Positions 35,074-42,249 of a stretch of DNA of 42,249 bases are shown one piece after another. How positions within the stretch are numbered: the first letter of the stretch is position 1; every line of letters begins with the position of its first letter. The notes under the pieces are model-generated. The model did no database searches and was not told where the DNA came from. It saw nothing but the letters and a program-made list of their open reading frames with translations. The position numbers and the translations under genes are program-made. Location: NCBI RefSeq assembly GCF_900109175.1, contig NZ_FNZE01000026.1:1-42249 (forward strand), given 5' to 3'. The DNA is from Pseudomonas linyingensis (GTDB lineage: Bacteria > Pseudomonadota > Gammaproteobacteria > Pseudomonadales > Pseudomonadaceae).

Positions 35074-35126
35074 GGGAGAAAGCCTGGGATCGGCCTAGCC
35101 TATGCGGGACTTTGGGGGAGGCAGCG

Positions 35127-35798
35127 ATGCGCATTCTGGTGGTGGAAGACGAGCTGAAGACCGCGGACTACCTGCGCAAGGGGCTGGGCGAGTCCGGCTA
35201 TCTGGTGGAGGTGGCGCTGAATGGCCTGGACGGGCTGCACCTGATCCAGGAAAGCGAGTTCGACCTGATCATCCTCGACGTGATGCTGCCGGGGCTGGAT
35301 GGCTGGCAGCTGCTGCAGGTAATCCGCCGCAAATTGCAGACGCCGGTACTGTTCCTCACCGCCCGCGACGCGGTGGAGGATCGGGTCAAGGGCCTGGAGC
35401 TGGGTGCCGACGACTACCTGGTCAAGCCGTTCTCCTATGCCGAACTCCTGGCGCGGGTGCGCACCCTGCTGCGCCGCGGGCCGCCGCGCGAGGTCGAGCA
35501 GTTCCGCGTGGCGGACCTCGAGCTGGATCTGCTGCGCCGCCGGGTCACCCGTGCGGGCGAGCGCGTCAACCTGACCAACAAGGAGTTCGCCCTGCTGCAC
35601 CTGCTGCTCAGCCGCGAGGGCGAGGTGCTGTCGCGCGCCTACATTGCCTCGCAGGTCTGGCAGATGAACTTCGACAGCGACACCAACGTGGTCGACGTGG
35701 CCATCCGCCGCCTGCGCGCCAAGATCGACGATCCCTATCCGTGCAAGCTGATCCATACCGTGCGCGGCATGGGCTATGTGCTGGAAGTGCAGCCGTGA
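35127..35798 (+). CDS. OmpR-type response regulator (HprR/CusR/CopR group)
   Basis: A 223-residue response regulator. The receiver (about residues 1-115) has the acidic pair Glu7-Asp8, phospho-acceptor Asp51 in [13 protein letters not shown], Thr78 and Lys100 in DYLVKPF. The winged-helix output domain (about 125-222) contains [31 protein letters not shown] and [18 protein letters not shown] 35127 follows GGGGGAGG. The kinase start overlaps its stop (GTGA), so both are coupled. Sequence style is that of regulators for copper, heavy metals or oxidant stress. It should bind the ATTAC-N6-GTAAT box and control the divergent exported proteins. Confidence 0.92.
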
Positions 35799-37165
35799 GC
35801 CTGTGGCCGCGCGCGCTGAGCCTGCGTCTGGCGCTGCTGTTCGCCCTGGTCGGCGTGCTGCTGCTCGGCGCCATCGGCTTCTACCTGTACCAGTCGCTGG
35901 AGCGGGAAATCGCCTGGCGCGACGACCAGGCCCTGCTCGGGCGCCTGGAACGCATGCGCACGCTGCTCGATGACAGCGCGAGCATCGAGGCGCTGCGCCA
36001 GCGGCCGCAGCTGTACGCCAACATGCTGGGCAATCGCGACAGTCTGCTGTGGATCGTCAGCGACAGCGGGCAGGTGCTGATCGAGATCAACCCCGCCGCA
36101 CTGGCCGTGCCGCAGCTGCCGCGCGGGCCGGCGGTGCAGCTGCGCGACGCCTTGGCGGCCGAGCCGGCGCGGCTGGCCTGGCTGCACGTCGAGCACGAGG
36201 GCCGCGGCCTGACCCTGATCGCCGGCAAGCTGCTCGCCGAGCGCAGCCAGATGCTCGCCGCCTACCGGCTGAAACTCTGGCTGGCGCTGGCCGCCGGGGC
36301 CGTGCTGGCCTTCCTGCTCGGCTGGCTGGTCAGCCTGCGCGGCCTGCGTCCGGTGCGCGAGCTGGCGGCGCGGGCGCAGGCCATCGACGTGCAGCACCTG
36401 CACCTGCGTCTCGACGAGGTCCAGCAGGTAAGCGAGCTGCGCCGCCTGAGCGCGGCGCTGAACCAGATGCTCACCCGCCTGGAGGAGGGCTTCGCCCAGC
36501 TGTCGCGCTTCTCCGAGGATCTCGCCCACGAGATGCGCACGCCGCTGAGCAACCTGATGGGTCACACCCAGCAGACCCTGCGCCACCCCCGCTCGGTCGA
36601 GGACTACCAGAACCTGCTGGCCTCCAACCAGGAGGAGTACGAGCGTCTGGCGCGGATGATCGACAGCATGCTGTTCCTCGCCCGCACCGAGCAGCCACAA
36701 GCCTCGGTGAACCGCGAGGCGGTCGACCTGCACGGGCTGGTCGAGCAGCTGTGCGAGTACTTCGAGGGCATGGCCGAGGAGCGCGAACTGCAGCTGGTCA
36801 ACCGGGCCGAGGGCACCCTGCAGGCCGACCCGGGCCTGCTGCGCCGCGCCCTGGCCAACCTGCTGGCCAATGCCCTGCGCCATGCCGCGCCGGGCAGCCC
36901 GGTGAGCATTGCCAGCCAGCTGTGCGACGGGCGGCTCGAAGTCGGCGTGCACAATCTGGGCGAGCCGATCGCCGCCGAGCATCTGCCGCGGCTGTTCGAG
37001 CGTTTCTATCGCTGCGACCCTTCGCGCGCCCAGCCCGGCGATTCCGGCGGTCTGGGTCTGGCGATCGTGCGCTCGATCATGCAGCTGCATGGCGGCAGCG
37101 TGCGGGTCGAAAGCGACGCGCACGGCACGCGCCTTATGCTGCTTTTCCCGTTGGGACGGCCGTGA
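35795..37165 (+). CDS. Sensor histidine kinase (HprS/CusS-like, heavy metal sensor group)
   Basis: A 456-residue inner-membrane kinase. GTG 35795 overlaps the regulator stop; the upstream frame is only antisense-like read-through of the regulator gene. Membrane helices lie at about residues 10-33 and 158-182, enclosing a periplasmic domain of about 125 residues ([18 protein letters not shown]). HAMP follows (183-236), then the H-box [18 protein letters not shown] with phospho-acceptor His245, the N-box around [10 protein letters not shown], and the G-box [15 protein letters not shown]. The periplasmic part is the place where an HbpS-like partner, copper or oxidised residues could be sensed; no metal-binding cluster stands out. 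Confidence 0.92.
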
Positions 37166-37509: not shown

Positions 37510-39621
37510 TCAGAAGCTGGCCTCGCGCACCACGATCGCCAGCGCATTGCGCAGGTAATGCCATGCCGGTGCCTCCCAGCGTGCATGCACCACCACGTGG
37601 CCGCGCCAGGACTGTCCGTCGAGACTGCCCAGTGGCGAATCGACGGCCAGCGTGACGCGATAGACGGCATGCTCAGGCACCAACTGGTCGTTACGCGGAC
37701 GGGTCAGAATGTGTCCGCCAGCGTCGGCCGCGAGCATGCCTGTGTTCAGCACCCGCGAAGCATCCGTATCGATGTTGGTGACCCGCAGGGTAAGGAGTGG
37801 GCCGTCTCCGGCATCGGCCATGAACAGCCCGCGATCGCCGTCCCGGATACGCTTGACGGCCGACTCGTCCAGATAGGTTTCCACCAGATTGCCTTGCTGG
37901 CCGACCAGCAGGGCAATCGGCTCCTTGGCAGCTAGCCACTGCCCATCATGCAGGTCGGGGTCCACGTCACGCAGGCGCCCGGCGAAGGGAGCCTTGGGCG
38001 CGTAGCGACTCAGCTCCTCGTCGAGGCTGGCCAGTTCTGCCGTGGCGGTGGCCAGTTCTTCCTGGCTGCTTTGCAGGCGTGCGCGCGACTCGGCGCCGAA
38101 GCCGGCCGAGGCGGCCTGCCAGCGCAGCGCCTCGATGCGAGCCAGCAGACCCTCGCGGCGCAGTTGCAGTTCTGGGGTGGCCAGGCGGATCAGCTCCGCG
38201 CCGGCCGTCACCGCTTGGCCTTCGCTCAAGGCAAAGCGTGCAACCTGAGCGGGGCCGGGAGCGAACAATGGCCAGATCTCGACCGGCCGCAGCACGCCGC
38301 TGGAATGCACCCGCCCGGGCCAGGGCACCAGCAACAGGGCGATCAGGCCGAGCAGCAGCACGAAGCTGAGCCGGCCGCGTCGGTGGGTGCGGATGAGGGG
38401 CCAGCGCTGGTGCCAGGCCTGCAGTTCATGGCGGATGGGCATGGCGATGAACCAGACGATTTCCACGATAAAGAGAAAGATCCCGACAATTTTGATGAAG
38501 AAGTGGTAGACCAGTACGGCGATGCCGAGGAACACTACCAGTCGGTAAATCCAGGTCGCCCAGGCAAAGGCGATCAGCCCGATTTCGCGCGGCCGGGAGA
38601 AATGTTCGGGACGCTCCTCGCCGAGTGCGAACAGCCACTCGCGCAGCTTCCAGCGTGCCAGGGCGAAGCTGCGCTCATGCAGGTTGGGCATGTCCAGCCA
38701 GTCGGCGATGATGAAGTAGCCGTCGAAGCGCATGAACGGACTGGCGTTGATTGCCAGGGTGGCGACCCAACTGGTGGTGGCCAGCACGAAGGCTGCCGAG
38801 CGCAACTCGCCGTCGGGCAGCAGCGCCCAGGCGAGGGTGGCCCAAGCGGCGATCACCAGCTCAGTTAGGATGCCGGCTGCGGCGACCTGCAGGCGCTGCC
38901 AGCGACTGGTGAGCCGCCAGGTTTCGTTGGTGTCGGTATAGGCCATCGGCCACAGCACTAAAAAGGCCACGCCCATGGTCGGCACGCGACAACCGAAGCG
39001 CTTGGCGGTAAAGGCATGGCCCAGCTCATGCAACAGCTTGACCAGCACCAGCGCCACGCCATAGGCCGCGAGGCCTTCCCAACTGAAGGTATCGACCAGC
39101 GAGGCGAAGAAGCCGTCCCACTGGCGCACGATTTGGGACAGACCCAGGGTCAGGGCCAGCAGCGTCAGCAGAGCGAAGCTGCGGGTATAGAGCAGGCCGG
39201 CCAGGTGCTGCCAGCGACCGAGCCAGGCATCCGGGCGCCACAGCGGCACGCGGAAGAACAGATAGTGGTGCAGCAGCCACTTCAGGCGGCTGCCCTCCTG
39301 GCGTGCCCGCCGCTCGGCCAGGTGGCGCGCGCTGTCCCGGCCGGCGGGCTTGAGCAGTTGGTTATCGAGCAGGAAGCGTGCGACTTGCTGCACGTCCTCG
39401 CCGCTCAGCTGCAGAGTGGTACTCACCCCGATCGCCTCGGCAATCGCCGCGGGGTCATCGAACGACCAGCGCTGCAGGATCTCGAAGGTGGGCCAGTCGA
39501 TGCTGAAGAAACGATTGCGCACCGGGTCGTGCAGCGTCCAGCTCGGCTGGCCATCGGCCATGATGGGACCAGGCAGCAGGTCCAGCTCCTCGCGCAGTTG
39601 CGGCAGGCCCACGGTTACCAC
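37510..39621 (-). CDS. Site-2-protease (M50) / HlyD membrane-fusion hybrid protein
   Basis: A 703-residue membrane protein with three parts. Residues about 25-95 ([22 protein letters not shown] and following) look like a small winged-helix, PqqD-like domain. Residues about 140-440 form a polytopic peptidase M50 core with zinc motif HELGH (198-202) in a membrane helix and a second motif [12 protein letters not shown] (292-303) whose Asp300 would be the third ligand. After a last helix (about 418-434), residues 440-700 are a HlyD-type adaptor: a lipoyl-like half around [20 protein letters not shown], a coiled coil (490-540), then [23 protein letters not shown] 39621 overlaps the preceding stop by 7 bp, so the gene is coupled to the HlyD-like gene. 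A role in processing or exporting the VCBS protein is inferred. Confidence 0.85.
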
Positions 39622-40979
39622 CCGATCGTCGTGCGAATGCTAGCCAGCGGTCGGCGTAGCATCCAGTAGGCCAGCGGCACCCAGCGGCCACGCAACTTGG
39701 CGCTGCCCTTGAGGCCGACGCGGTGCCCGGTCGGCTCGGCGAGACGGGCACGCAGGCGGTAGGCGTAGCTTCCGTCCGGGCGTTGCACGGCGTCATGGGC
39801 CAGATAGCGCAGGTTCGCCTGCACCGGATCGAGCGGGCTGGCGTTCAGGTACAGGCTGAGCGCTGCGGCCTCCTCCAGGGGAATGGCGTCGGCCAGCGGC
39901 ACCCAGGCTTCCACTTCGACATCTCCGGGCGTGGCGATGCGCATGATGCGCTCGCCCACGGTGACTGGCCGGCCGATCCACTCGGAGGGGTCGTCGAACA
40001 ACGCAATGCCGTCGCGTGGCGCCAGTACCCGTGCACGACTCAATTGATCGGTGATGAACACCACTTCCGTGCGTTTCTCCTCGATCTTGCCGGTGAGCAC
40101 GGCGAGTTGAGCCTTGGACTTGGGATCGAGCAGCGCCTGCTGCATGGTCTGCCGGTACTCGGTTTCGGCCGTCGCCAGCGCCTGGCGGGCGACCTCCAGG
40201 CGCGACTGGATCAGTGCCTCGTCAAAACCGAACAGCGGCTGACCCTGGTTGACCTCCTGGTTGGGTTGGACATGGAAGGTGTCGATCACGCCCTCCAGGG
40301 GCGCGCGGATCACCGCCGGATGCGCCGGAACCAGCTCGCCGGGGGCGAGCACGCTCAGGCGCACGGGCAACATAGCGATAAGCACGCCCGCTAAGGTCCA
40401 GCGCAACGGCGTCGACCGCCACCAGCGCCGCCTGGCTTCGGCAACCTGCGCTTTGTGACGGCCCCATGGCCAGCGTGCCGGTACCTGGCGCGACTGCCAG
40501 GCATGCCGCCAAATATCCGCCCATTCGGCCAGCAGGGCCTGCTCCCGATCCGTCCACGGCAGGTCGCGGGCCAGCAGCAATCCGCCGTCGGCAGGTGCCC
40601 GCCCGCCCTCGTCACTGTCGTCGGCCAGCCCCAGCCACAGAGCGTGGCGCGGCAGCCATTCGGCCCACTCCGTGCCGAGCGGCTCGGGCAGCGAGGCGGC
40701 ATCGACCCGGGCAACCGCCGGTGCGTTGTCGGCCAAGTGCCGGCAGGCCTTGGCCAGCCACTGTGCGTAGGGCACGTTGGCCTCGACCTGGATCACCCCG
40801 GACAGACTGGCGATGCCTTGCCTGGACGACCACAGCGCCGCCTGGCGATAGGGCACCAGCTGGTGGCTGTCGTTCACCGCGATGAACTCAAGCTCGCGTA
40901 CGGATGCGGCATGCCGCACCCGGCGTCCCAGCTCGAGCAGTACCGCCAACGGGTTGGTTTCCTGCACGACGTGCTCCAT
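39615..40979 (-). CDS. HlyD-family adaptor with an N-terminal GAF-like domain
   Basis: A 454-residue protein. Residues about 8-165 are cytoplasmic and resemble a GAF domain ([57 protein letters not shown]). A single membrane helix follows (about 193-215, [21 protein letters not shown]). The periplasmic part is a HlyD/membrane-fusion adaptor: [28 protein letters not shown], a coiled coil (about 265-330), then [25 protein letters not shown] 40979 overlaps the stop of the VCBS protein (TGATG), so the three genes form one coupled unit. No ABC ATPase or TolC-like gene is in the window; they may lie beyond the right edge. An adaptor of a dedicated export system is likely. Confidence 0.85.
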
Positions 40980-42249
40980 CAAAGTGCCTGCACCTTGGCC
41001 GCGGTCTTGGCGGCCGGCAGGTCGGCGAGAGCGAATGCCGGTCGCTTGGCGGCCATGCGCAGTTGCTCGCTGAGCCCCGCGCGACCATTGCCGGTGGTTG
41101 CGCTCGGTTTCTCGCCGACGCTGATGCGGAACAACGCGCTCACTTCGCGGCCCTGACTGTCGCGGGCGATCACCTTGACGGTCAGATCACCATGGAAGCC
41201 ATCAGGTGCCATTACCTCGAACTTTCCGGTCATCGGGTTGAAGATCACCCAGGGTGGCAATTGCTCGCCATTGGCCTGCATGGCTGCCAGCACCACGCGT
41301 GCTTGAGGATCGGTATGCACGAAGGCGTCGTAGGGGATCGAGAAGCTGCTCGCCGCCCCCGCATCAGCGTACTGGTCGCCCATGCCGCGGTAGATCGTCA
41401 GTGTCGGCTCGGGCGCATCCATCACAACCACGCGGAAGCCGGTAGTGCTGGTGTAGACGTCGCTGAAGGCGGCGCTCTGCATCGAGCCGAGGTCCAGCGC
41501 TCCGAGGCCGGTGACCATCGGCTTGGCATCCGCCAGCGCCGCCTGCAGTGCCGGGCTGTTGACGATGGCCGGAGCCGGAATGGGAGCCGGATTCGGGCTG
41601 CTGGGCGCGGCAGGCGGTTCGCTAGCCTGCGGCGGCGTGATCGGCGCCGGCGCCTGAGGCTGAGCGGGCGGCACGTCATCCAGGCCGCGGACGCTGACCT
41701 CGACCACTCGCGAGGTGCCGTCGAGAGTCTGGACGGTGAAGCGCTCGCTCATCGTCTCGCTGCTGGTCAGGCGCTGCACATGGCGGGCGTCGTTATCCAG
41801 GAGGTAGGTCCAGTTGCCGTCGACATCGATGGCGAAGGTGCCATAGCTGCCTGCGACGGCCTGCTGGGCGACGAAGGCAGCCTGGCCACTGTCGGCATCG
41901 TTGACCTGCAACCGGCCTGCGGTCGCCAGGGTGGTGTCCTCTTGCACGCTGCCGCTGCCGCTGCCGCCGATCACGGCGGCGTCGTTGACGCCGGTGATGG
42001 TGACCACCACCTCGTGCCCGGTGCCGTCGAGGGCCTTGACGGTGAAGGTCTCGACCTTGGTCTGGCCGGCCTGGAGGTACTGCACGGCGGCGTTGGCGAC
42101 GCTGTAGGTCCAGGCGCCGCTCTCGTCGATGCTCAGGCTGCCGAGGGCGCCCTGGCTGGCGACGATGCCGGAGGTCTGGAACGTGGCTTCGCCCGTGTCG
42201 GCGTCCGTGATGGACAGGGAGCCGGAGTCGGTGAGGTTCGGGTTGCTGG
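40979..42249 (-). CDS. Giant VCBS-repeat surface protein, C-terminal part (N-terminus outside window)
   Basis: The minus-strand frame is open from the right edge to the TGA at 40979-40981, giving the last 422 residues. It starts inside a VCBS repeat, followed by another (ITGVNDAAVIGGSGSGSVQED, then VDGNWTYLLDNDARHVQ and SERFTVQTLDGTSRVVEVSV). A Pro/Ala-rich linker follows (PPAQPQAPAPITPPQA), then a cadherin-like Ig domain (SIPYDAFVHTDPQARVVLAAM, PPWVIFNPMTGKFEV) and a basic tail (LSEQLRMAAKRPAFALADL) ending KVQAL. Repeats of this kind build long adhesins. No glycine-rich RTX nonapeptides are present in the visible C-terminus, unlike LapA-type substrates of type I secretion. Coupled downstream to two HlyD-type genes. 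Confidence 0.88.
   Translation of the reverse strand, partial: SNPNLTDSGSLSITDADTGEATFQTSGIVASQGALGSLSIDESGAWTYSVANAAVQYLQAGQTKVETFTVKALDGTGHEVVVTITGVNDAAVIGGSGSGSVQEDTTLATAGRLQVNDADSGQAAFVAQQAVAGSYGTFAIDVDGNWTYLLDNDARHVQRLTSSETMSERFTVQTLDGTSRVVEVSVRGLDDVPPAQPQAPAPITPPQASEPPAAPSSPNPAPIPAPAIVNSPALQAALADAKPMVTGLGALDLGSMQSAAFSDVYTSTTGFRVVVMDAPEPTLTIYRGMGDQYADAGAASSFSIPYDAFVHTDPQARVVLAAMQANGEQLPPWVIFNPMTGKFEVMAPDGFHGDLTVKVIARDSQGREVSALFRISVGEKPSATTGNGRAGLSEQLRMAAKRPAFALADLPAAKTAAKVQAL

Follow-up and report, generated by a model that had tools for sequence, protein, structure and literature searches.

How is a giant surface adhesin exported when the genes beside it encode periplasmic adaptors and a membrane protease in place of an ABC ATPase? 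The question is raised by one end of a Pseudomonas linyingensis contig analysed at its full length of 42,249 nucleotides (the window). A sequence-only reading had described three overlapping genes there, encoding a giant adhesin lacking visible C-terminal RTX repeats and two HlyD-type adaptors, one with a GAF domain (GAF-HlyD) and one fused to a site-2 protease (M50-HlyD), with no ABC gene beside them.

Gene content of the cassette

The three overlapping genes are real and lie on the minus strand (Table 1). The adhesin stop codon overlaps the start of GAF-HlyD by 1 nt (ATG start) or 4 nt (TTG start), and the GTG start of M50-HlyD overlaps the end of GAF-HlyD by 7 nt. Since the window is a complete contig (C23) of a genome of 4.72 Mb, the adhesin frame is broken off at its right end by an assembly gap. 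The sequence-only reading had advised looking beyond this end for the adhesin N-terminus and for ABC or TolC genes. The N-terminus and a TolC-like gene were found on contig C12 of the same genome, while no ABC gene is present in the cassette on either contig. C12 ends with a TolC-family gene (OEP, 7.1e-29; lipoprotein-like start judged by eye), a short HlyD gene (261 residues, 4-nt overlap with the TolC-like gene) and at least 1,999 residues of the adhesin from its N-terminus, the frame running off the contig. In a closed, single-contig genome of the same genus (G002), all five genes are contiguous, again with no ABC gene among them, and the adhesin frame has 5,837 codons from stop to stop; we thus infer that C12 and C23 adjoin in the P. 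linyingensis genome. The order of the cassette is TolC-like lipoprotein, short HlyD, giant adhesin, GAF-HlyD and M50-HlyD, and HlyD_3 was found in the last two proteins and in the short HlyD. An OmpR-type response regulator and histidine kinase pair (35112-37162, plus strand) is convergent with the cassette.

The C-terminal piece of the adhesin carries VCBS (TIGR01965, 2.6e-55), Cadherin_4 and He_PIG repeats. In agreement with the earlier description, neither this piece nor the N-terminal one of 1,999 residues (best score there, 13.7 bits versus 21.4) attained the cut-off of any RTX repeat family, these two ends being the parts covered by the search and the middle being missing from the assembly. 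Close to the C-terminus lies a box, GLSEQLRMAAKR, found in relaxed form at the ends of other cassette adhesins. A strict pattern of this box matched 43 of 80 cassette ends versus 92 of 1,507 other open reading frames (ORFs), and a relaxed one, written after the strict misses had been seen, matched 68 of 80 versus 118 of 1,507.

Table 1. Features of the cassette in the window
Feature	Position	Strand	Remarks
Giant adhesin, C-terminal 422 residues, stop included	40979..42247	-	Open frame at contig end
Adhesin stop codon	40981-40979	-	
Adhesin C-terminal box GLSEQLRMAAKR	41042..41077	-	Also at the ends of other cassette adhesins, in relaxed form
GAF-HlyD adaptor gene	39615..40982	-	ATG 40979 or TTG 40982; 454 residues counted from ATG
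GAF domain of GAF-HlyD, residues 6-168	40476..40964	-	Predicted structure
Periplasmic adaptor part of GAF-HlyD, residues 205-435	39675..40367	-	Predicted structure
M50-HlyD gene	37510..39621	-	GTG start; 703 residues; stop included
RRE/PqqD-like N-terminal domain of M50-HlyD, residues 5-92	39346..39609	-	Predicted fold
Site-2 protease (M50) membrane core, residues 179-375	38497..39087	-	
HELGH zinc motif, residues 198-202	39016..39030	-	
NxxPxxxxDG motif, residues 292-301	38719..38748	-	
Periplasmic adaptor part of M50-HlyD, residues 433-690	37552..38325	-	Predicted fold

The protease-adaptor fusion, its GAF partner and their relatives

M50-HlyD combines Peptidase_M50 (PF02163, 42.4 bits; cut-off, 27.2), including the HELGH motif, with HlyD_3 in the same protein, as had been read from the sequence. 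A homologue search yielded 563 relatives, of which the best 80 were kept as loci. HExxH is present in 79 of these 80 (the 80th sequence is cut) and the NxxPxxxxDG pattern in all 80. Residues H198, E199, H202, N292, P295 and D300 are invariant in two alignments, A1 (23 sequences) and A2 (47 sequences: the window and 46 of the best 80 loci, picked by eye). The predicted fold of the protease part is RseP-like, with a Z score at a level that helical proteins can reach without kinship; the Pfam match and the motifs, beside this fold, support its assignment as a putative M50 protease. The closest curated families by score are the maturation proteases of daptide (NF041824) and LiaK (NF058609) RiPPs. 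They share the M50-type protease, but the window protein scores below both cut-offs (157.5 bits versus 300 for NF041824), is fused to an adaptor and has a partner of thousands of residues.

The N-terminal domain of M50-HlyD has a predicted fold closest to the leader-bound RREs of lasso peptides (6jx3, 5v1v), in a structure comparison for which VIA-align warned that the model outside residues 433-690 was barely tested. Unlike in those domains, leader binding would here be deduced from the fold. Pfam PqqD gave no match in the window protein and a weak one, at E 0.2, in 1 of 47 clade members, and a profile of the domain searched against the PDB retrieved no RRE. In the window clade the RRE-like assignment is therefore a structural prediction, for which sequence proof failed; in the M50-HlyD of a sister-clade locus (L081), the same region passes the Pfam PqqD cut-off.

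The other adaptor, GAF-HlyD, gave no GAF match with Pfam, and PF01590 was matched by 6 of 40 homologues (alignment A3 comprised 39 of 75, picked by eye). Its predicted structure shows a GAF domain, so the earlier description of two HlyD-type adaptors, one of them with a GAF domain, stands for a pair that both carry HlyD_3. The two genes belong together: a GAF-HlyD homologue accompanies M50-HlyD in 75 of the best 80 loci, and the arrangement is thus not due to chance. The short HlyD was found in 50 of these loci, the TolC-like gene in 46 and all four machine genes in 46, within flanks of 10 kb that often end inside a long frame. The position of the adhesin varies, as it lies between the short HlyD and GAF-HlyD (L091), before TolC (L119) or after M50-HlyD (L113 and L164). 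The loci are mostly from Pseudomonadota, with a few from Thermodesulfobacteriota and Nitrospirota. Among 56 genomes, M50-HlyD matched 28 (own included) at E 0.001, the weakest matches being parts of other adaptors. The nearest relative among the matches listed, where very near records may have been left out, is Pseudomonas songnenensis (69% identity in M50-HlyD). One locus (L100), from a metagenome-assembled genome titled Akkermansia muciniphila, encodes an M50-HlyD 57% identical to that of the window and is probably a mis-binned contig.

The gene pair had been taken as undescribed, which does not hold: proteins of the GAF/HlyD, M50/HlyD and HlyD kinds were reported beside a secondary SecA by Kamneva, Poudel and Ward in 2015 (PMC4452313), in the parts of that paper available to us. 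Its authors suggested that SecA may be the ATPase and that the M50 protein may form the pore, and left the role and substrate open; no mention of an adhesin, LEPR or PqqD/RRE was found in those parts (PMC4452313). That locus shares with ours GAF-HlyD, M50-HlyD, HlyD, sometimes TolC/OEP, and the lack of an ABC gene (PMC4452313); it differs in that the window cassette has no second SecA, belongs to a separate M50-HlyD clade and has a giant adhesin with an LExRxxFDGA leader as partner. The cassette is a SecA-free sister of this described but uncharacterised locus. What we propose in addition is the leader signal, the RRE-like domain and the adhesin as partner, all of them new within the literature searched: in the portions of the open-licence literature that were seen, we found no account of M50-HlyD with adhesins and none of LEPR-XLL paired with a secretion machine, in keyword searches of a kind that can miss such papers. 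A multi-repeat adhesin system of Pectobacterium was considered as the same cassette and judged unlikely, its cluster being described with LapG in the part of the source consulted (PMC6963963).

Leader motifs and the two clades of M50-HlyD

The readable starts of cassette adhesins show a short basic-rich stretch followed by LExRxxFDGA or a close form of it (FDAA in some, LDGA in G048). A Sec signal was rejected by eye, since E, R and D occur in the first segments, which have no hydrophobic core. A loose form of the motif, looked for in the first 150 residues, occurred in 36 of the 1,802 locus ORFs of at least 300 aa; 35 of these have at least 900 codons and the other, with 550 codons, represents the beginning of the G016 adhesin. 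One long cassette frame, in L157, has no leader motif. We then used a leader profile of 34 positions, built from 23 rows picked by pattern; the rows of alignment A4 were likewise pattern-picked, so that part of its invariance is by construction.

Among the 56 relatives, this profile matched 18 genomes, all of them among the 20 with a close M50-HlyD (5.1e-95 or better, a cut set after seeing the table); the two others were G042 and G044. Three genomes (G010, G015 and G026) have two leader matches and two close M50-HlyD copies each. Of 299 Pseudomonadota genomes, 68 were matched: 67 of the 73 with a close M50-HlyD versus 1 of the 226 others (Fisher test, kinship ignored; P = 1.7e-58), the latter comprising 0 of 12 with a divergent M50-HlyD only and 1 of 214 with neither. 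The sole match in the group with neither type came from a 57%-complete genome. The split between close (73 genomes, 5.6e-193 or lower) and divergent (12 genomes, 1.3e-105 to 3.4e-37) was also set after the tables had been seen, and the survey scored up to 3 M50-HlyD and up to 26 leader candidates per genome, which makes copy numbers and misses uncertain. Six close-type genomes gave no leader match (G057, G110, G111, G138, G178 and G252), two of which (G057 and G138) match the LEPR-XLL family (NF012209). Up to six leader matches were seen in a single genome in G080, G095 and G151, with at most 3 M50-HlyD candidates scored in each.

The divergent proteins form a sister clade. In a quick tree of 65 M50-HlyD proteins, 16 divergent rows stand apart from 47 others and two copies from G052 (SH-aLRT, 99), G049 and both G052 rows being long branches of unsure placement. 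The two G052 copies join the window clade and come with no match to the leader profile or to NF012209. A second SecA was present in 9 of the 12 divergent-only genomes, all 9 inside the M50-HlyD locus; among the 18 close-type genomes searched alongside, G057 alone has one, next to its divergent copy. Similarly, with the SecA profile a second SecA was absent from the best 80 loci and turned up twice in 29 further loci (G010c and G037), adjoining divergent M50-HlyD genes; G010 and G037 were also the only ones of the 56 genomes with a strong second SecA. The P. linyingensis genome gave a single SecA match (443.8 bits, a 942-aa frame) on a different contig from the window.

The sister clade also has its own signal. 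NF012209 matched 11 of the 12 divergent-only genomes (18 of the 28 searched in all; control, 1 of 14), with protein starts, where printable, of the form LExRxLLSAD, LExRxLFSAD or near, and with several frames of 4,000-12,000 codons. Both kinds occur in G010. Frames of ~5,600 to 12,400 codons were noted at L299-L310 (G010, G074, G208, G336, G216 and G346), in genomes with the SecA-linked locus. LEPR-XLL proteins thus resemble the cassette adhesins in carrying an N-terminal LExR motif on giant proteins, and differ in its core, LLSAD instead of FDGA. Membership of the P. linyingensis adhesin in this family was rejected, as its residues 1-500 gave no NF012209 match (cut-off, 17 bits); two relatives scored below the cut-off and three just above. 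Signal type and machine type therefore divide along the same line, which is the best argument that the motif is read by the machine. LEPR-XLL has also been described on a giant Vibrio protein with C-terminal RTX, according to the part of the source that we saw, so LEPR-XLL proteins may use other routes too.

Candidate export routes

With a probability that we put at about one half, the five genes make up an exporter dedicated to a single giant surface adhesin, in which an RRE-read leader, a cut by the site-2 protease and an adaptor-TolC duct would follow one another. The adhesin, which starts with the basic stretch and LExRxxFDGA rather than with a Sec-like signal, would be bound by its leader in the cytoplasm by the RRE-like domain of M50-HlyD, as RREs bind the leaders of small modified peptides. 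This domain would pass the leader on to the site-2 protease, which may cut at or near the motif as export starts or ends; intramembrane processing of the adhesin is a prediction of this model. The predicted adaptor parts of M50-HlyD, GAF-HlyD and the short HlyD would form a periplasmic ring docking on the TolC-like lipoprotein, and the GAF domain may gate the complex from the cytoplasmic side. The motor would come from outside the cassette, either the general Sec ATPase or the proton-motive force, aided by the folding of the repeats outside, and we think these likelier than a borrowed ABC ATPase.

More tentatively, and at somewhat less than an even chance, RRE-guided intramembrane-protease exporters could represent a separate kind of secretion system for giant proteins, with an LExR leader that is read, a site-2 protease that gates or cuts and a three-adaptor TolC duct, divided into a branch with a dedicated SecA and LEPRxLLSAD leaders and an LExRxxFDGA branch that has no motor of its own. 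This would link two loose ends, the secretion-like locus of Kamneva 2015, which had no known substrate, and the LEPR-XLL motif of giant proteins, and would explain the purpose of the LEPR-XLL signal. In that case, giant proteins can be exported by means of RiPP-style recognition of a leader together with an intramembrane protease, the window branch having no motor of its own. The short leader and the active site offer testable targets.

Other readings of the same genes were weighed against the dedicated exporter. LapG does the releasing job for LapA, whose retention module lies at its N-terminus, and M50-HlyD may have a LapG-like job: the adhesin would be exported by a different route, remain anchored through its N-terminus and be freed when M50-HlyD cuts under GAF control. 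The invariant protease residues, the recurrent GAF partner and the motif in the same place as the LapA retention module are all in line with such a switch. However, M50-HlyD joins its protease to an adaptor and to an RRE-like domain that would face the cytoplasm, which suits recognition before export, and no alternative route was found in the cassette, so that we consider a release switch unlikely. We think it very improbable that M50-HlyD and GAF-HlyD act together on a small RiPP-like peptide, maturing and exporting it, with the adhesin as a mere neighbour. The likeness of the protease part to daptide and LiaK maturation proteases and the RRE-like predicted fold would fit this idea, but what recurs as partner across orders and phyla is a long ORF carrying the motif at its N-terminal end.

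The cassette resembles the type I secretion of giant adhesins (of the LapA and BapA kind) in its giant repeat adhesin, HlyD adaptors and TolC-like protein, and differs in having no ABC ATPase, no RTX found (RTX repeats near the cargo C-terminus being usual, not universal, in type I secretion) and three adaptors, one of them fused to a protease. The absence of an ABC gene beside the adhesin and adaptors, already remarked on from the sequence, was confirmed in the P. linyingensis and G002 cassettes. A type I exporter encoded elsewhere could nevertheless provide the ATPase and inner-membrane channel, with M50-HlyD, GAF-HlyD, the short HlyD and TolC as accessories. In its favor, LssB-type ABC exporters over the cut-off are commoner in genomes with a close M50-HlyD (38/73) than in others (56/226; Fisher test, kinship ignored, P = 2e-5; 3 candidates scored per genome), an enrichment that may instead reflect lifestyle. 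Against it, no such exporter passes the cut-off in 35 of the 73, and even at E 1e-90 no match was obtained in 7 (deduced for G115, G138, G225 and G252 from their absence in the match list); such an ABC exporter is therefore not needed in all. Genomes without a match numbered 65 in total, 20 of which were listed. An ABC-motif scan of 109 loci likewise gave 14 scattered ORFs, none placed as a cassette gene. We regard this remote motor as improbable, and retain the dedicated exporter with a general energy source as the preferred reading.

Two cases of ABC exporters would be compatible with a remote motor. A 704-codon ABC exporter gene, one of the 14 ORFs from the motif scan, adjoins a Serratia cassette (L145:12895-16334), where it lies with a HlyD-like ORF on the opposite strand. 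The P. linyingensis genome itself has two LssB-type exporters (G000:C25:84891-90234 and G000:C10:2860-6402), each adjoining TolC-family matches. The one on C25 is also close to a repeat-protein match, so that this genome probably has ordinary type I adhesin systems as well.
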